NCBI RefSeq assembly: GCF_009761675.1
Contig: NZ_QUZH01000010.1
Span: 1 to 33,984 of the forward strand
Length of the DNA: 33,984 bases
Origin: Bhargavaea sp. CC-171006
GTDB taxonomy: Bacteria > Bacillota > Bacilli > Bacillales_A > Planococcaceae
Direction of reading: 5' to 3'
In this document: piece after piece, positions 3,309 to 29,163 of the stretch
Numbering within the stretch: position 1 is the stretch's first letter
Layout of the letters: every line of letters starts with the position of its first letter
Notes under the pieces: model-generated
The model's input: the letters and a program-made list of their open reading frames with translations, nothing else
Told to the model about the DNA's origin: nothing
Databases searched by the model: none
Position numbers and translations under genes: made by a program

Positions 3309-3382
3309 CGAAAGTGAAGCAGGCTGTTCCGAATGTGAAGATTACGGCTCTGAATTTGAAGAATACAGCTTCGAATTTGAAA
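3309..3382. repeat. Intergenic 21-bp tandem array A
   Basis: Four imperfect units begin at 3310, 3331, 3352 and 3373, exactly 21 bp apart. Each begins with GAA followed by AGTGAAG, TGTGAAG, TTTGAAG or TTTGAAA. The array lies between the rsbX terminator and the tex start. The first unit's core, reverse-complemented, is CTTCACTTTC, the core seen in the arrays at 17971-18133 and 27683-27760. No function is known to me. Confidence 0.75.
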
Positions 3383-3408: not shown

Positions 3409-3444
3409 AAAACAAAAACCCGCTCCGCGGATTCAGCGGAGCAG
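3409..3444 (-). terminator. Intrinsic terminator of the sigB operon
   Basis: The stem GCTCCGC/GCGGAGC (3436-3442 with 3422-3428 on the minus strand) has a seven-base loop that contains the rsbX stop codon. It is followed by GGGTTTTTGTTTT. It closes the rsbR-rsbX transcription unit. Confidence 0.85.
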
Positions 3445-4032
3445 GCTTCCTGTGATATAAGTGGCATCATCGCCATGTTTGAGTGTTTCATGCACTTTCT
3501 TATACAGATCATACGGACCGGCGCTGTTCTGCATGAATGCCTTCGGGCTCCGGATGTCCACGCCGTCTGAGTGCAGAAGAAACAGGTCTCCCGGTCCGTA
3601 GTCAAAGCCCTGTGTGCGGAGTTTCTGCGGGCGACCGGACAGGTAGCCCATCACCGGGAGCGGGTAGATCATTTTGTCATCCGAACGCCGGTACAGATAA
3701 AATCTCACGTTTCCCACACAGCTGTACTCGATTGTCGACGTCTTGAAATACGCCTTGATGATCGCAACCGCAGCTCCCCGCTTCTGATGCATGTGCATGT
3801 TGCACCGGCTGAGCAGCTGGTCGATGGATTCATCATGGTGGCGTTCCAGGATCTCCGGCACGATTTCAGCCGATTCCCTGGCGATCGGACCGTTTCCAAG
3901 TCCGTCGGCAATCGCGCAAAGAAAGTAGTCCTCATTGGTGAAGGTATAGTACACATCACCCGATTCATGATTTCCCGGCTTGGCTTCCTGATAGATGTAC
4001 GCCTCTACACAGTCGTCCTTCACTGTCTTCAA
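3433..4032 (-). CDS. rsbX: RsbX, PP2C-type phosphatase, sigma-B feedback regulator
   Basis: RsbX dephosphorylates the stressosome proteins RsbR and RsbS and so resets the signal after stress. The protein has 199 residues, the same length as B. subtilis RsbX. PP2C-type metal-binding aspartates appear in SGD (D26), ADGLGNG (D43), HSDGVD (D156) and DDATY (D188/D189). The SVGNVRF and YPLPxxGYLSG segments are typical of RsbX. The start codon is TTG at 4032, forming a TTGA overlap with the sigB stop, with AGGTGGTGGGG just upstream. As the last gene of the sigma-B module it should rise with SigB activity and act as negative feedback. Confidence 0.95.
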   Translation of the reverse strand: MKTVKDDCVEAYIYQEAKPGNHESGDVYYTFTNEDYFLCAIADGLGNGPIARESAEIVPEILERHHDESIDQLLSRCNMHMHQKRGAAVAIIKAYFKTSTIEYSCVGNVRFYLYRRSDDKMIYPLPVMGYLSGRPQKLRTQGFDYGPGDLFLLHSDGVDIRSPKAFMQNSAGPYDLYKKVHETLKHGDDATYITGSLLR

Positions 4033-15858: not shown

Positions 15859-17409
15859 TTATTCGCCTTCTGCAGCAGGAGTTCCTTCAACTGGAGATGG
15901 TGCCTGCAGCCGATTTCTCGGATCATACCAATCCATCAGCCGGTCCGCATCCGCTTCATCGATATGGCGGATTGGCGCTTTGCTCGGCATGATGCCAGAC
16001 TTGAATGCTGCCGTGACAGTCGCGACATTCCTCCGCTTCTGGAAGATGGTCTGATGCTCCTGCATCGACTGGATCCGTTTTCTCGATACATAGACCGTAT
16101 GCAGCGTAAATTCACGCCAGCGAACGGTCAGCTGGCGGTCATTGACTCTCCAGCCGGCGGAGCGGTGCTGCCAGAGTCCCAGGAGAATAATCACCGGAAT
16201 GATCAGCAACGCAAGCAGGCCGTACGGGAACAGGAAGTACCCTGCGGCCGCTGTCAGCGGAAGCACCCAAATGAAGTCAAGCCGGTAATAGAACGGACGG
16301 GACCTCACCGGAATCCCTGCCAGTTCCCCGGACGTTTCAATATCAGGGAAAAGCTCCGAAAGAAGACCGTTCACTTCCCGCTTCCTTACGAGCGGGAACA
16401 GCCCGATTGCCGCGCCCGCCTCCTTCACGCTGCCCCCGGCGCTATGCACCTTGACCGATACATAGCCGAGAAGCTTCTGGAACGGGTTCTCGCTTACCCG
16501 TACCGCCTGGATACGCTTCAGCGGCACGGTGACCCGTTTTTTCTCAAGAAGCCCCCTCGAGATGAACAGGTCGTCCCCGTCAAACGAGACAGTGAATCCA
16601 TAGAATCCGAGGTACGTCCAGGCAACGGACAGAATCCAGCCGACAAGCATCAGGACAAGGACCACCGCGGCGACCATGAATACGCCAAACCGGATAAATG
16701 CGACCACTTCATCATAGATCACATCAAACGGCAGGATGTCGGCGAACTGCGACAAGAAAATCGCGATCCCGGAAAAGATAAGGCCGATCCTTCCGGAGAA
16801 CGTCGCAAGGAGGAAGATCTCTTTCCGGCCCATCCGGAAAAGGGTTTTCACTTCTTCTTCCGGCTCTTCCGCCGGGAAGACACCGACAGCTTCTGCACCG
16901 TCCTCCTGCACTTCCTGTACGCCCGCCCGCCTGCGGCGCTTCGCTTCCGAGATGACCGCGCTTACCCGGTCCGCCTCCGCACGGGTTACCGCCGTCAGGT
17001 CCGCCTCCGCCCCCTCCAGGACGGATGAGTTCCCGGCGGTCTCAATCTTCACCTTGACGAGCCCGAACGGCCGGTGGAAAATCCCTTCCGTATAATCAAC
17101 ACTCTGGATCCGTTCAAACGGAATATAGCGCTTTTTCTTCACAAACAACCCGTGTTCAATCCGGAGCTCCCCGTCCTCGAACCAGTAGACGAACCGCTTC
17201 CACTTGATAAAACCGGCAACAGCCGTAATGACGATAAATGCCCCGAATATCAGAATGGTCAGGTTATCCAGCCAGAAATTCCCCGAACGTTCCCGCCCGA
17301 TGCCGTTCGCCACAACGATGACGAGGAGCGGAATGATCGCTTCCTTCAGCGTCTTGAGGAGTTCAATGACAGCAGTGACCCAGTGCAGCCTGTTCTTCTC
17401 AGACATCAT
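15859..17409 (-). CDS. YdbT-like membrane protein with three bacterial PH (bPH2) domains
   Basis: The product has 516 residues and two pairs of transmembrane helices plus a C-terminal pair. Between them are three bPH2 repeats at about 70-150 (GLFVKKKRYIPFERIQSVDY), 265-350 (GLLEKKRVTVPLKRIQAVRV) and 415-500 (YVSRKRIQSMQEHQTIFQKR). A charged segment (about 152-190, rich in Glu and Arg) separates the first repeat from the second membrane block. It matches B. subtilis YdbT in position and layout. YdbS-YdbT have been linked to resistance against Bacillus competitors' antimicrobial peptides, a role recalled from the family rather than shown here. Start ATG 17409 (or 17406) overlaps ydbS by 11 nt. 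Confidence 0.9.
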   Translation of the reverse strand: MMSEKNRLHWVTAVIELLKTLKEAIIPLLVIVVANGIGRERSGNFWLDNLTILIFGAFIVITAVAGFIKWKRFVYWFEDGELRIEHGLFVKKKRYIPFERIQSVDYTEGIFHRPFGLVKVKIETAGNSSVLEGAEADLTAVTRAEADRVSAVISEAKRRRRAGVQEVQEDGAEAVGVFPAEEPEEEVKTLFRMGRKEIFLLATFSGRIGLIFSGIAIFLSQFADILPFDVIYDEVVAFIRFGVFMVAAVVLVLMLVGWILSVAWTYLGFYGFTVSFDGDDLFISRGLLEKKRVTVPLKRIQAVRVSENPFQKLLGYVSVKVHSAGGSVKEAGAAIGLFPLVRKREVNGLLSELFPDIETSGELAGIPVRSRPFYYRLDFIWVLPLTAAAGYFLFPYGLLALLIIPVIILLGLWQHRSAGWRVNDRQLTVRWREFTLHTVYVSRKRIQSMQEHQTIFQKRRNVATVTAAFKSGIMPSKAPIRHIDEADADRLMDWYDPRNRLQAPSPVEGTPAAEGE

Positions 17410-17878
17410 CTTCCGCCACCCTCGCGAGCACGGAGATCCGGCTCCTCAGCTCGTCGGCTTCCTCCATCTGGAGCGCCGGGACCTCGTGGTTGGTCGCAGC
17501 CGTTGACACCGTAATGCCCGAAAGGCCGTATTTCCGAAGAATCGGGCCCTGGCTCGTGTCCACGTGCTGGACACGGACCATCGGGACAAGCGTCCGCTTC
17601 ACGATGAACAGGCCGTGCTGCAGCTCGATCTCCGTCTCCCGAACTTCATACCTCCAGCGCTGCCACCGGATCTTCGGAAACAGGAAGATCAGCAGGAATC
17701 CCGCAATCACGGAAACCGCTCCCGACACGATATAAATCCAGATCGGGCCTTCGAATATGTATGCCAGTACACTTGCCGCAATCGCCGGGACGAGGACAAT
17801 CAGCGTATAGAAGATCCCGTGGATCCTCCAGACGGTCAGCCCCTTTTCCGATATGCGGTTCGCCGGTTCTCTTCTCAT
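17399..17878 (-). CDS. YdbS-like bPH2-domain membrane protein
   Basis: The product has 159 residues from ATG 17878: two N-terminal transmembrane helices and then one bPH2 domain (GLFIVKRTLVPMVRVQHVDT, YGLSGITVSTA). AAAGGGGTG lies 7 nt upstream of 17878; the GTG at 17887 lies inside that site. It is the same length as B. subtilis YdbS, precedes ydbT with an 11-nt overlap and presumably acts in one membrane complex with it. The array at 17971-18133 lies directly upstream. Confidence 0.9.
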   Translation of the reverse strand: MRREPANRISEKGLTVWRIHGIFYTLIVLVPAIAASVLAYIFEGPIWIYIVSGAVSVIAGFLLIFLFPKIRWQRWRYEVRETEIELQHGLFIVKRTLVPMVRVQHVDTSQGPILRKYGLSGITVSTAATNHEVPALQMEEADELRSRISVLARVAEDDV

Positions 17879-17970
17879 CCGGTTCACCCCTTTGTTGACT
17901 TCTTTCTATTGTATACGGAAACGACGGAAAAACGTTTCATTAATTCGATTAAGCGTTTGGCCTTACGTGG

Positions 17971-18133
17971 CGATTCGTCACTTTCGAGAGCCGTTGCGTC
18001 ACTTTCGGAAGCCGATTCATCACTTTCGGTAGCCGATTCGTCACTTTCGGAAGCCGATTCATCACTTTCGAGTGCCGTTGCATCACTTTCGGAAGCCGTT
18101 GCGTCACTTTCGTGGGCCGATGCGTCACTTGCC
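17971..18133. repeat. Intergenic 21-bp tandem array C, eight units
   Basis: TCACTTTCG (TCACTTGCC in the last unit) begins at 17978, 17999, 18020, 18041, 18062, 18083, 18104 and 18125, exactly 21 bp each time. The rest of each unit reads GAAGCCGATTCG or GAAGCCGTTGCG with single changes. It lies 8 bp beyond the cshA terminator and upstream of ydbS. Open frames through it (Ser-Glu-Ser-Asp repeats on the minus strand) are a by-product of a period divisible by three. Confidence 0.92.
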
Positions 18134-18141
18134 CACACGAC

Positions 18142-18173
18142 AAAAAAACCGGAAAGCCGTGTCGGCTTTCCGG
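18142..18173 (-). terminator. Intrinsic terminator of cshA
   Basis: A ten-pair stem CCGGAAAGCC / GGCTTTCCGG (18149-18158 with 18164-18173) with a five-base loop is followed on the minus strand by TTTTTTT. It begins 14 nt after the cshA stop. Confidence 0.9.
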
Positions 18174-18187
18174 GTTCTTTACATGTC

Positions 18188-19648
18188 TTATCGGTTGCGC
18201 GGGCGTCCGCCTGGGCGGCGTCCGTCGCGACGTTTGCTGTCTCGGTTGTAGCCACCGCTGCGGCTGGAGCCGCTGCGGCCTTTGTAGCCGCCGCCACCAC
18301 TGCGGCCACCGCGGTTTCCACCACGGAACGGAAGCGGTTTTTCTTCCGTGATCTTGACCGGGGTATCGTCCGGCTCGCGCGTAAGTGTTTTGATCGCTGC
18401 GGCGATAAGGTCAACGGCTTCATTGTCCTTGAGCATTTCTTCCGCAAGGATCCGGTAGTCGTTGAGCTCGTTCTTTTCGACGATTTCCTTCAGCTGGCTG
18501 ACTGCAAGCTTCTGCTGGCCTGCCAGTGCTTCGTCCTCGGATGGCGGATTAAGAGGGGTCATGCGCTTCTTCGTCGTTTCTTCAACCGTGCGGAGGTAAC
18601 CCATCTCGCGCGGTGTGACGAATGTGACAGCAACCCCGCTCTTGCCTGCACGGCCTGTACGGCCGATGCGGTGGACGTAGCTTTCAGGGTCCTGAGGAAT
18701 GTCGAAGTTGTAGACGTGCGTGACGCCCGAAATGTCAAGACCGCGTGCTGCAACGTCAGTCGCAACAAGGATATCGATCTTGCCTTCCTTGAACTGGCGG
18801 AGGACCGACAGGCGCTTCGCCTGTGTCAGGTCACCGTGGATGCCTTCCGCAAGGTAGCCGCGGAGGTTGAGGGCCTGAGCGACTTCATCCACACGGCGCT
18901 TCGTGCGGCCGAAGATGATTGCGAGTTCAGGCGGGTGCACGTTCAGCAGGCGTGTAAGCGCGTCGAACTTTTCGCGTTCCTGTGCCTTCACGAAGTACTG
19001 CTCGATGTTCTCGACAGTCATTTCCTTTGCCTTGACACGGACTTCCACCGGAGACTTCATGTAGTTGTCCGCAATTTTACGGATCGGGCCAGGCATCGTT
19101 GCCGAGAAGAGAAGCGTCTGGCGCTCAGATGGGACGTTCTCGAGAATCGCGTTGATGTCCTCGATAAAGCCCATGTTCAGCATCTCGTCCGCTTCGTCAA
19201 GAACGAGCGTCTGGACACCGTTAAGCTTCATCGTGCCGCGTTTGATGTGGTCGAGAATCCGTCCCGGTGTACCGACGACGATCTGCGGGCGGTTGCGCAG
19301 CGCGCGGATCTGGCGGCCGATTTCCTGTCCGCCGTAGACGGATAGGATGCGGGCACGCTTGCCGTAGCCGATGCGGTAGATCTCTTCAGAGACCTGAATC
19401 GCAAGTTCACGGGTCGGTGCGATGATCAGCGCCTGGATGTCCGGGTTCTGCGTGTCGATCTTCTCGATGATCGGAACGCCGAAAGCAGTCGTCTTGCCCG
19501 TACCTGTCTGGGCCTGGCCGATTACGTCCTTGCCCTGCTGGCCGAGCGGAATCGTCTCTTCCTGGATTGGTGTCGCCTCTTCAAAACCCATGCGTTCGAG
19601 TGAAAGCTGTGTGGAGTCACTGATGTTCAGATCAGAAAACTTTGTCAA
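18188..19648 (-). CDS. cshA: DEAD-box RNA helicase CshA
   Basis: ATP-dependent RNA helicase that in Bacillus acts in RNA turnover, ribosome maturation and cold adaptation. The product has 486 residues. From the chosen start it carries AQTGTGKT (46-53), PTRELA, TPGR, DEAD (151-154), SAT (182-184), ARGLD and HRIGRTGR (326-333). A C-terminal tail rich in Arg and Gly, typical of CshA, likely binds RNA. The start is TTG 19648: GGAG lies 10 nt upstream and the length to [11 protein letters not shown] matches B. subtilis. The TTG at 19657 is only 1 nt from that site. A leader with an early terminator precedes it. Confidence 0.95.
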
Positions 19649-19893
19649 ATGTGTCAATCTCCTTATCCTTCATGTGATCATTGGATCCATTTTCAAATGA
19701 AGTCCGGCATGCCGTGCCGTTTCGGAGTTTTTCAGTGTTGCCCGCCATTCCGCGGCAAGGCAGTGCGCTCGAAAAGTTCCGGTTGCTGCCGGGCGGTCCG
19801 ACCGGAGAGGAACACGCCCTTCAACCGAACCGTTTCAAAAAAAACAACTCTTCCTAAAAAACGCGAAGAGTTCCCGTTCAAATGTATCCAATA
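19649..19893 (-). promoter_or_regulatory. Long cshA 5' leader, possible attenuator
   Basis: About 245 nt separate the predicted start site (near 19893) from the cshA start codon. The segment right at the 5' end, ATTGGATACATTT (plus 19880-19892), can pair at 12 of 13 positions with AAATGGATCCAAT (plus 19680-19692), which ends about 18 nt before the ribosome site. An intrinsic terminator lies between them. A switch between terminator, long-range helix and translation is a hypothesis. No known leader family was recognised. Confidence 0.5.
19837..19872 (-). terminator. Intrinsic terminator inside the cshA leader
   Basis: On the minus strand AACTCTTC (19865-19872) pairs with GAAGAGTT (19846-19853) around an 11-base loop, followed after one G by TTTTTTTT (19837-19844). 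It lies only about 22-57 nt downstream of the predicted cshA start site and well upstream of the coding region, so it should attenuate cshA transcription or yield a short RNA. Confidence 0.75.
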
Positions 19894-19899
19894 GTTAGC

Positions 19900-19928
19900 A
19901 GTATAACATGGCACGGCTCTTCTTGCAA
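19900..19928 (-). promoter_or_regulatory. Sigma-A promoter of cshA
   Basis: On the minus strand TTGCAA (19923-19928) and TATACT (19900-19905) are 17 bp apart, with a TG extension at the right distance before the -10. The predicted start is near 19893. Confidence 0.75.
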
Positions 19929-20020
19929 TGAAACCGGCGCGGGCCAGTGCCCGCGGGGGTCCATTGATGTTGCCTGAACCGGATTGGGGAATCCGGCCGC
20001 AGGCTTTGGGCATGGCAACG

Positions 20021-20186
20021 GGACTTTAATTCCGTGTTCCGGTTCTGCATCGCGGATATCGGACTTGGATTCCCGGATCCGGACTAACGGTTCGGATATC
20101 GGACTTAGAATCCGCTTTGCGGACTGACGGAACGGATATCGGACTTATAGAAGCGAATCCGGACTTGGCGCGCACTGGCCCCGCAC
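20021..20186. repeat. Intergenic 20-bp tandem array B
   Basis: GGACT(T/A/G) recurs at 20021, 20061, 20081, 20101, 20121, 20141 and 20161, all on a 20-bp grid. Degenerate units occupy 20041 and 20181. Units often end GGATATC or GAATCC. The period is 20, not 21, and so is not a multiple of three, which argues against coding. It lies between the murF stop codon and the cshA promoter. Confidence 0.88.
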
Positions 20187-20241
20187 TTTAAAAAGGAATG
20201 ATCGATGCGCTTGCTGAAATTCCTGTTCGCACGGACCTTGC

Positions 20242-21609
20242 TTATAATGTGTCCGCCAATTCCCCGATGATACGTTCAAGCGCCATTCCGCGGGAACCTT
20301 TCAGCAGGATCAGCGGAGCTTCTCCGAGCCGGCTTTTGAGTTTTCCGGTGATCGGTTCCAGGTCTTCCGCGCTCCAGACCAGCCGGTCCGCAGGGAATTT
20401 CCCTTCAAGCTTCCGGAACAGATGCTCCATCCGCGGGCCATACAGGCAGACGCCGTCAAAATCTGCCGGATCCAGTTCTTCGGCAAGTCCTTCGTGGGCC
20501 GGCACTTCCAGCGCGCCCAGTTCCAGCATGTCGCCGAGGACGACCCATTTCTCATCACGCAATGTCGAGCTTCTGACAAATCCGAGTGCCGCCCGCACAG
20601 ATGTCGGAGCCGCATTGTAGGCGTCGTTGATGAAAAGCGATCCGTTAGGCCCTTCGACCGTCTGCATGCGCATGCCGGTCAGTTCGACCGACTTCAGCGC
20701 TTCCCGGATCTGTTCATCGGTGAGCCCTGCTTCCCGCCCGATCAAAATGGCAGCAAGCGCGTTTTTGGCCTGATGCGCACCAAGTACAGGAATCATGAAC
20801 TCTCCATCAGCAGTCCGGAACACGCTTCCCGCTTCCGACGGCTCGACCGACATGAGGCGGAGACTGCACGTCTCCCCTTCCCCGAACGGCACGGCCGCGC
20901 CTTCCGGCAGTTTCTCCACATGCGGGGCGAGCAGCGGCTCGTCGCCGTCGTAGAACAGTTTTCCGCCGGGCTGTAGACCATCGGTGATTTCGGATTTCGC
21001 CTGTGCGATGCCTTCACGGGAACCTAGGTCCTGCATATGCGCCTCGCCGATGTTCGTGATGACCGCGTACTTCGGACGGGCCAGCTCGGACAGGAAGGAG
21101 ATTTCGCCAAACCCGCTCATGCCCATCTCGAGCACCGCGTACTCGGTGTCCTCCGGAAGCGACAGGATTGTCAGCGGAAGGCCGAGCTGGTTGTTATAGT
21201 TCCCTTCCGTTTTGCGCACGCGGAAGTAAGGGGAAAGCGTTCCTGCGACAAGATCTTTGGTTGATGTCTTGCCGTTCGATCCGGTGATGCCGATGATCAC
21301 GGCATCCAGTTCTTCGCGGTAGCGGCGCGCCATCTGCTGAAGCGCCAGTTCAGGATCTTCAACGAAAAGCACCGGCCGGTCATCCGGTGCCCCCGGAACC
21401 CCTTTTTGCCAGAGTGTCGCCGCGGCACCCTTGTCGAATGCCTGAGGGACAAAGCGGTGGCCGTCCGCCTGTTCCCCCTTGAACGGAATGAACAGATCAT
21501 CTTTTTTCAATGTCCGGGTGTCGATCGACACACCCGTTACGGCAACTCCGCCGCCTTCTGTGTGCGGAAGGCCGAGCCAGTCCGCAATTTCATTCAATGT
21601 ACGTTTCAT
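20242..21609 (-). CDS. murF: UDP-N-acetylmuramoyl-tripeptide--D-alanyl-D-alanine ligase
   Basis: Cytoplasmic Mur ligase that adds D-Ala-D-Ala to the UDP-MurNAc tripeptide. The enzyme has 455 residues. The N-terminal domain has SIDTRTLKKDDLFIPF. The central ATP site is GITGSNGKTST (107-117, K114). SGFGEI and TNIGEAHM follow, with NDAYNA in the C-terminal domain and LLKGSRGMALE at the end. Start ATG 21609. It follows ddl by 13 nt, so the D-Ala-D-Ala synthetase and its user are co-transcribed. I see no clear terminator before the 20-bp array. Confidence 0.97.
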   Translation of the reverse strand: MKRTLNEIADWLGLPHTEGGGVAVTGVSIDTRTLKKDDLFIPFKGEQADGHRFVPQAFDKGAAATLWQKGVPGAPDDRPVLFVEDPELALQQMARRYREELDAVIIGITGSNGKTSTKDLVAGTLSPYFRVRKTEGNYNNQLGLPLTILSLPEDTEYAVLEMGMSGFGEISFLSELARPKYAVITNIGEAHMQDLGSREGIAQAKSEITDGLQPGGKLFYDGDEPLLAPHVEKLPEGAAVPFGEGETCSLRLMSVEPSEAGSVFRTADGEFMIPVLGAHQAKNALAAILIGREAGLTDEQIREALKSVELTGMRMQTVEGPNGSLFINDAYNAAPTSVRAALGFVRSSTLRDEKWVVLGDMLELGALEVPAHEGLAEELDPADFDGVCLYGPRMEHLFRKLEGKFPADRLVWSAEDLEPITGKLKSRLGEAPLILLKGSRGMALERIIGELADTL

Positions 21610-27599: not shown

Positions 27600-27632
27600 A
27601 AATCCGCCCTCCCGGATGGAGGGCGGATTTTT
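27600..27632 (+). terminator. Intrinsic terminator of the copper operon
   Basis: An eleven-pair stem ATCCGCCCTCC / GGAGGGCGGAT (27602-27612 with 27618-27628) with a five-base loop is followed by TTTT. It begins about 12 nt after the copA stop. Confidence 0.9.
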
Positions 27633-27682
27633 GGGGTCCCAGGGGGCATCGTCCGCTGTACACTCGCCCCCCGTTGCATTCA

Positions 27683-27760
27683 TCACTTTCGGGGACCCTT
27701 TCGTCACTTTCAGCCCCGCTTTCGTCACTTTCGCCAGCGGCACCTTCATTTGTCACTTCA
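27683..27760. repeat. Intergenic 21-bp tandem array D
   Basis: TCACTTTC begins at 27683, 27704 and 27725, exactly 21 bp apart. A further TCACTT at 27753 is out of phase by seven bases. The core is the same as in the array at 17978. It lies 50 bp beyond the copA terminator and runs into the promoter of the next gene. Confidence 0.75.
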
Positions 27761-28989: not shown

Positions 28990-29024
28990 AAAAGCCGCTC
29001 CGGATATAATCCGGAGCGGCTTTT
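28990..29024. terminator. Bidirectional terminator after MFS gene
   Basis: A 14-pair stem AAAAGCCGCTCCGG / CCGGAGCGGCTTTT (28990-29003 with 29011-29024) with a seven-base loop. The terminal A-T pairs provide a T run in both directions. Confidence 0.88.
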
Positions 29025-29058
29025 CGTCGCGTTGTTTATGGATGATTGGCGGCAGCTA

Positions 29059-29163
29059 CTTGGACTCTCGTTATCGCCGCTTGGGCTCTTGCTGTCCTTG
29101 CTTGTACTCTCGCTGCCGTCGCCTGGTCTTTCGCTGAACTTGCCTGGTCTTTCATTCAGGATG
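29059..29163. repeat. Intergenic 21-bp tandem array E, five units
   Basis: Units begin at 29059, 29080, 29101, 29122 and 29143, exactly 21 bp apart, with starts CTTGGACTCTCG, CTTGGGCTCTTG, CTTGTACTCTCG, CCTGGTCTTTCG and CCTGGTCTTTCA. The unit sequence differs from that of the other arrays. It fills the space between the MFS terminator and the stop codon of the convergent cyclase gene at 29168. Confidence 0.88.

Follow-up and report, generated by a model that had tools for sequence, protein, structure and literature searches.

What are the 21-bp direct repeats that lie between a DEAD-box helicase gene and a bacterial PH-domain gene in the window, and what accounts for them? The window is the complete 33,984-bp contig (C5) of a 3.27-Mb Bhargavaea genome (G000), and the repeats, our type array (Table 1), stand in exact register: cores reading TCACTTTC start at 17978, 17999, 18020, 18041, 18062, 18083 and 18104, and the variant TCACTTGC at 18125 is the eighth, which bears out the strict eight-unit array described in the initial annotation (TRF gave a period of 21, 7.6 copies and 0% indels). 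We read the type array as, most likely, a solo (gene-less) putative target array of NERD-A, one of the NERD-ZH genes, whose products consist of a NERD domain, then a four-cysteine zinc ribbon and then an HTH-like C-terminus. A matrix built only from the arrays that flank NERD-A (in G000 and G005) matches seven units of the type array, and over the whole window its matches are confined to the two family A arrays (7 + 3 units). The number of units at the type locus differs between species, as the annotation had proposed checking: across the Bhargavaea genomes G000, G001 and G003 to G007 there are eight units in G000, six in G005, five in G007, three in G001 and, in G006, about 12 core-like copies, partly out of register and with the core TCAYTCTC, while G003 retains a degenerate remnant and G004 lacks an array. 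The array lies beyond the bidirectional terminator of the DEAD-box gene, yet it is also 5' of the PH-domain gene, upstream of a SigW-like promoter. The SigW-like motif, assigned by its consensus, is recognisable still in several related species, and the PH-domain gene pair beside the DEAD-box gene resembles the arrangement of ydbST next to cshA in Bacillus subtilis.

Table 1. Arrays and neighbouring features of the window, with face-to-face family B pairs elsewhere in G000
Feature	Position	Strand	Remarks
Family H-like array, about GARTTTGAAGAWTAC	3309..3382	+	period 21; candidate cognate NERD-H at G000:C10:130258
Bacterial PH-domain gene	17399..17887	-	Pfam PF03703 8.7e-18; downstream of type array
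SigW-like motif TGAAAC-N16-CGTA	17914-17939	-	by eye; upstream of PH-domain gene pair
Type array, family A	17971..18133	+	8 units of 21 bp; core TTCRTCACTTTCR with variable 6-7 bp spacer
Bidirectional intrinsic terminator	18149..18173	both	terminator scan; between DEAD-box gene and type array
DEAD-box helicase gene	18188..19657	-	Pfam PF00270 5.2e-51, PF00271 3.3e-33; 3' end toward type array
Family G array, core about ATCGGACTTA	20021..20186	+	period 20/40
Second family A array	27677..27760	+	3 clear units and a degenerate fourth; 3 matched by NERD-A flank matrix
Family M array, core about CTTGGACTCTCGYT	29058..29163	+	period 21; between convergent genes
Family B face-to-face pair	C6:58717-58908		G000
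Family B face-to-face pair	C8:83674-83859		G000
Family B face-to-face pair	C10:118744-118905		G000
Family B face-to-face pair	C32:3460-3630		G000

Four further arrays of the same 21-bp design had been annotated in the window. All four exist, but the family G array has a period of 20/40, and only two of the five arrays, not three as had been claimed, carry TCACTTTC as an array. The position of all five 3' of a gene holds against called genes, and the terminators said to precede four of them divide into two contained in the terminator scan (18149-18173 and 3414-3450) and two recognised by eye only, as hairpins with T runs at about 27602-27631 and 29000-29024 that are absent from the scan list, which holds a smaller hairpin at 29016-29030. 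Orthologous arrays of both the second family A array and the family M array are present in G005. The candidate cognate gene of the family M array is NERD-M (G000:C19:367860), beside which a similar core is found in both G000 and G005, with a single unit of the window array above the strict matrix threshold. The likeness of the array at 3309..3382 to family H was judged by eye, with 0 units above that threshold, and no cognate NERD was found for family G among loci L200-L342, where 0 loci have at least three same-strand copies of TCGGACTT.

Such arrays recur well beyond the window. We read 736 kb of G000, in which the contigs beyond the window were picked for family A matches, so that family A density may be overstated, and the other families were unselected. 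Self-comparison of this sequence found 49 lag-21 runs and 11 lag-20 runs, and, leaving aside the multiples 40, 42, 60 and 63, none of the remaining lags between 8 and 69 had more than five; the suggested autocorrelation check for 20-21 bp intergenic periodicity thus found an excess, and a chance origin of the 21-bp periodicity is excluded. From the 60 lag-detected runs, three inside called genes were dropped, leaving 57 non-coding runs, a few of which adjoin or overlap. The pattern TCACTT-N15-TCACTT occurs 57 times in G000 versus three times for its reverse, and wherever consecutive TCACTTTC cores are no more than 70 bp apart their spacing is exactly 21 bp (39/39). An origin from coding repeats was ruled out by the 20-bp periods and the location between called genes. 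An attempt to assign all 57 runs to nuclease families placed 53/57, a figure that is not relied on since genuine arrays were present in the random windows used to set its thresholds and periodic DNA passes the test too easily. No excess of arrays away from NERD genes was seen in 20 genomes of other genera (at most 20 kb of each, two stretches being shorter).

The arrays group into about a dozen motif families, for which we coined letters as labels; the unit consists of a roughly 14-bp core and a 6-7 bp spacer that varies. In family A, unit positions 18-21 and 1-9 make up TTCRTCACTTTCR, with an S-like and a W-like position ahead of it, and six positions carry little information among 41 units that had been preselected for at most one mismatch to TCACTTTC. 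The cores of other families are RRTYTCGTCATTCR (B), TTCTATGCGCGCTT (C), AACGTCTCA (D), GAGTTTGAAGATTA (H), TGAATGTCTCGATAC (I), TTTCGCGNCNGCAAC (J) and CTTGGACTCTCGYT (M), there is also a family L, and E, F, G and N have a period of 20 bp. Between G000 and G005, two orthologous array pairs differ at 26/48 spacer positions and at 2/24 positions of the TTC part of the core, the only part compared within the core because the TCACTTTC part was preselected at no more than one mismatch; a third pair has one differing position. Units had been described as homogeneous within an array and different between arrays, which is only partly right: near-identical units, pointing to recent local duplication, do occur in some arrays, as beside NERD-N and in 42-bp duplications in G005, but single cores recur in many arrays genome-wide and are kept, and the spacers drift and usually vary even inside one array. 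Family B arrays often stand face-to-face, an array followed by its reverse complement, forming large near-palindromes with no gene between (Table 1); these are possibly gene-less forms of the NERD-B locus. At C10:193099-193459 in G005 there are two adjacent 20-bp arrays of 10 and 7 units with a ATACTCCGAACTCG-like core, without a G005 NERD match nearby.

The genes that accompany the arrays point to a cognate protein. In G000, two A arrays 1.1 kb apart flank NERD-A and B arrays lie on both sides of NERD-B, each gene standing alone between arrays of the same family. A whole-genome search of G000 with PF08378 gave nine matches, eight stand-alone and one a NERD-UvrD helicase; all eight stand-alone genes (one of them, on C26 with family C, truncated) adjoin 20/21-bp arrays on at least one side, of eight different families, and the NERD-UvrD gene has no adjoining array. 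We then took NERD loci of the taxonomic family in E-value order and scored them on lag alone, with an array threshold of 27 of 42 that was fixed after looser and stricter trials. A lag-20/21 array lies within 700 bp of 37/50 NERD-ZH loci, a count that takes in the eight discovery loci and some loci orthologous to one another, and 13/50 have none at the threshold used. Outside Bhargavaea the figure is 27/39, compared with 3/27 for NERD loci of other architecture, one place among which was counted twice as L217 and L240 (Fisher p 3e-6), and 4/245 for background 1.52-kb windows from 20 genomes of other genera; hardly any array was scored at lags other than 20/21. A later set from the taxonomic family gave 14/18 NERD-ZH loci with arrays (five of the 18 were already in the sample of 50), and in other families of class Bacilli 7/11 have 20/21-bp arrays, some of them weak. 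An early reading as a genus-only system, drawn from one pattern present in 6/200 genomes of the taxonomic family, was dropped when other genera and families proved to have NERD-ZH arrays with other cores.

Our analysis of eight array-associated proteins placed all of them above the PF08378 gathering score (38.4 to 65.2 bits versus 22.1), and the same Pfam scan returned nothing else above cut-off, with no HTH, transposase or Cas domain; the C-terminus is called HTH-like from a reading of the sequence by eye. Twelve aligned, diverse NERD-ZH proteins share an invariant GxxGE, the D of QxD (whose Q is nearly invariant), ExK, a Q and the four cysteines, residues which we take to match an intact PD-(D/E)XK nuclease active site. 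A single-sequence AlphaFold model of one NERD-ZH protein reached a pLDDT of 35, and a PDB profile search returned weak zinc-ribbon look-alikes only (best E 0.0076).

The array motif also follows the protein. The eight Bhargavaea genomes hold 66 NERD-ZH proteins out of 69 NERD loci, 7 to 11 per genome, and 57/66 of the genes have a detected array, the other 9/66 having none at threshold. Orthologous NERD-ZH genes mostly have a common motif and related proteins have related motifs, mean motif similarity dropping from 12.1 for the closest proteins to 0.8 for the farthest (n=57), and a comparison of 28 orthologue groups gave a Mantel rho of -0.13 (p 0.02); similarity beside orthologous genes is in part due to common descent of the locus. 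The core motif changes with the nuclease, and in the clearest case, family A in G006, solo arrays elsewhere follow. There, the arrays flanking NERD-A read TCRTCAYTCTCA, and TCAYTCTC-N13-TCAYTCTC has 22 occurrences in G006, five in G001 and none in the other six genomes. The core is TCACTTTC in G000, G003, G005 and G007 and TCAYTCTC in G001 and G006 (the direction of change is unrooted), and G001 pairs with G006 in several NERD clades. Family C makes a weaker case, in which the NERD-C flank and most other C arrays of G007 read AGCGCT and G005 is mixed. Orthologues of families E and N seem to have switched motif between species. Close orthologues in the 20-bp NERD group (L200, L278 and L233 versus L283 and L280) have different cores, TTACTCCAAAT or TTGCCACATGG, as if the specificity of this group had switched recently. 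The abundance of arrays agrees with the cognate gene for family A in G001 and for TCAYTCTC in G006, and disagrees for family A in G003 and G007 and for family B in G003.

Comparison of orthologous sites, which for NERD-A covered G000 to G003 and G005 to G007, revealed several states of the gene and its arrays. NERD-A and its two arrays lie between two convergent terminators in G000, G005 and G006, the site is empty in G003 and G007, and the G001 site retains decayed arrays and a NERD-A gene with an internal deletion. In G002 (L350, near C2:114900-115400) the site holds other repeats, matched by eye to two other families, suggesting that some gene-end sites may collect arrays repeatedly. For NERD-B, the left flank, the gene and the B arrays are common to G000, G005, G006, G001 and, over two contig ends, G007, with the right flank immediate in G000 and G007 and about 9 kb off in G005. 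Both flanks are joined in G003 via a single 3-unit B array, the outcome that would be expected of recombination between flanking arrays, or of insertion into an array; loss of NERD-B in G003 is the simpler reading, since five of the six species with B arrays have the gene next to this left flank. Inspection by eye of the empty sites in G003 and G007 and of the solo array in G003 revealed no target-site duplication. Spacer sharing between arrays at different loci was likewise not evident by eye, which means that solo arrays did not arise simply by recent copying from one another. Many intact family A arrays remain in G003 and G007 with no detected cognate NERD, and G003 retains many B arrays, with a perfect-core fraction of 0.82, but no detected NERD-B, which indicates that arrays need no gene in the short term. 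Decay of arrays after nuclease loss was rejected as a general rule, because the A arrays of G001 are decayed at the loci seen, yet the B cores of G003 are not; the A cores of G003 are partly decayed (0.58 perfect vs 0.84 and 0.75).

From the observed association, co-change and site states we infer that the window arrays are probably solo copies of the putative cognate DNA target of NERD-ZH nucleases, which would bind and cut there and might drive the arrays. The zinc ribbon and the C-terminal domain would read the core, and since 20-21 bp is two helical turns, copies of the protein could bind side by side along one DNA face, an arrangement that the initial annotation had proposed and that the matching nuclease genes support indirectly. 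The NERD domain may then nick or cut in or near the array, after which units would be gained, lost and seeded through repair and recombination at arrays, and recombination between the two flanking arrays could drop the gene and leave a solo array. Such a system would be genome-resident and largely selfish, possibly domesticated, its arrays being tolerated at gene ends since they keep clear of promoters. It is possible, rather than probable, that NERD-ZH genes and arrays form an intragenomic system of fast-changing specificity in which the nuclease drives the expansion, dispersal and rewriting of its own arrays. If so, a shift in specificity would change the core of arrays at many loci together, a switch or loss of the nuclease would leave array families behind as fossils, as the 20-bp families E, F and G in G000 may be (the only detected 20-bp-group nuclease there adjoins CTTACTCCAAAT), and the system would be the bacterial equivalent of PRDM9-style turnover and give the NERD domain its first DNA target. 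Simple drive is hardest to reconcile with two findings: B arrays stay intact in G003, where NERD-B was not detected, and arrays show no evident sharing of spacers. The flanking arrays of the 25 loci with arrays on both sides (12 direct, 13 inverted) run counter to clean transposon ends, and for the family G array of the window no cognate turned up among the loci searched.

Where the arrays sit bears on whether they might instead serve the host. Arrays avoid promoters and favour gene ends, and the enrichment 3' of genes anticipated in the initial annotation extends genome-wide: of 82 motif-seeded runs in G000 and G005, 33 lie between genes that converge, 46 between tandem genes and 2 between genes that diverge, and one is at a contig end, compared with 64 convergent, 293 tandem and 140 divergent among 497 intergenic regions of at least 100 bp (orientation classes from a simple in-house gene caller). 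A link between array polarity and replication strand was considered and rejected, family A being on the lagging strand in 9/10 and 8/11 and all families non-significant (p 0.10, 0.18). The positional bias would suit NERD-ZH proteins that act as gene-end insulator or nucleoid proteins, binding arrays cooperatively to block read-through or organise DNA, with the arrays selected by the host and NERD cleavage lost or rarely used. Conservation of cores while spacers drift, arrays at orthologous positions across several species and the survival of intact B arrays in G003 would fit as well. However, a 3' bias is equally expected from harmless insertion, because promoters are avoided, the nuclease-type residues are invariant, and 7 to 11 NERD-ZH genes per genome with differing motifs, gene loss and empty sites are ill-suited to housekeeping, so we consider a host function unlikely. 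We regard as distinctly improbable a role in defence or self-marking, in which host arrays would sequester NERD-ZH or mark self, and incoming DNA without arrays or with cognate sites would be attacked. A figure legend in PMC10910872 names NERD as a putative CRISPR auxiliary gene, NERD domains are sometimes fused to kinase or helicase domains according to the accessible text of PMC9040797, and two of four proteins have a weak similarity, below cut-off, to MAD6; against this, PADLOC gave 0 matches for four NERD-ZH proteins scanned, NERD-A and NERD-B stand alone between their arrays, and one viral-contig scan with NERD-A found no relative.

Two further explanations would separate the arrays from the protein. 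If transcribed, pyrimidine-rich arrays could be rut-like sites for Rho-type termination beyond a hairpin terminator, unrelated to NERD, in keeping with the location past terminators and with the pyrimidine-rich TCACTTTC strand of family A. This is very improbable: families B, G and H are found in both orientations, helical phasing is unnecessary for RNA, the NERD association is left unexplained, and a scan of window positions 17800-20300 found no Rfam family above cut-off (one isrG match, 15.4 bits versus a 100-bit cut-off). The near-identical units beside NERD-N and the 42-bp duplications in G005 are what neutral minisatellites arising by replication slippage would produce, their link to NERD being indirect because both lie in tolerant intergenic DNA; we give this almost no credence, as one core spans many arrays with different spacers, hardly any period other than 20 or 21 bp occurs, most NERD loci of other architecture have no array and the core change matches the nuclease.

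The preferred reading, that of NERD-ZH nucleases with cognate arrays, has its closest known way of working in the REP/REPIN and RAYT system, described in the accessible part of PMC2817692 as dispersed extragenic repeats with a nuclease gene flanked by its own repeats and with coevolution of repeat and protein. Like REP/RAYT, the arrays are dispersed in many extragenic copies, the NERD-ZH gene lies between members of its own repeat family with gene-less copies elsewhere, and array motif and protein coevolve. Unlike it, the protein has a NERD domain and zinc ribbon where RAYT is a tyrosine (HUH/Y1) transposase, TTCRTCACTTTCR and the other flank-matrix cores are asymmetric and stand in direct 20/21-bp arrays with free spacers where REPs are palindromes, the flanks are either direct or inverted (12 and 13 of 25) where those of RAYT are always inverted, and arrays can persist without a cognate gene, as in G003. 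The arrays are therefore not members of REP/RAYT, whose defining enzyme and palindromic repeat are absent. In plasmid iterons and parC-type arrays, direct repeats about two helical turns apart stack protein on one face; our arrays share this helical phasing but comprise dozens of chromosomal intergenic arrays in about a dozen families. CRISPR arrays alternate repeats with spacers of about 30 bp near a nuclease gene, whereas here the core is about 14 bp, the spacers are 6-7 bp, the arrays are dispersed and no Cas domain scored above cut-off in the eight associated proteins scanned.

The NERD domain (PF08378) was reportedly first described by Grynberg and Godzik in 2004. NERD-ZH proteins share this domain with known NERD proteins and retain conserved catalytic-type residues; SmdA lacks several conserved NERD residues and, to its authors' knowledge, NERD function in bacteria had never been studied before that work (accessible text of PMC9040797, 2022). 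No DNA target, array or dispersed repeat partner of NERD was found in the accessible parts of the open-licence literature, including PMC9040797, PMC10910872 and PMC4057527, nor was a named element like these arrays found in that literature, and subscription papers could hold one. One large group of these widespread domains thereby gains a concrete candidate DNA target, and an abundant class of unnamed intergenic repeats an explanation. If the nuclease does drive the arrays, they would represent a second, unrelated invention of the REP/RAYT lifestyle, one in which the unit is a helically phased array, and would supply dozens of natural DNA-reading domains, each with its matching motif.

Individual loci outside Bhargavaea also carry recognisable motifs. 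Lysinibacillus sphaericus (L144) and L. cavernae (L131) have CTATCCRTCACTTTC-like arrays, and the NERD-ZH gene at L235 (G020) is flanked by the matching TTCTATCCGTC. In other genera, the NERD-ZH genes at L381 (G068) and L384 (G009) are flanked by CGCTCATAGAA or CCGCTCTATC, motifs similar to that of Bhargavaea family C, a resemblance that suggests an old pairing of motif and nuclease.
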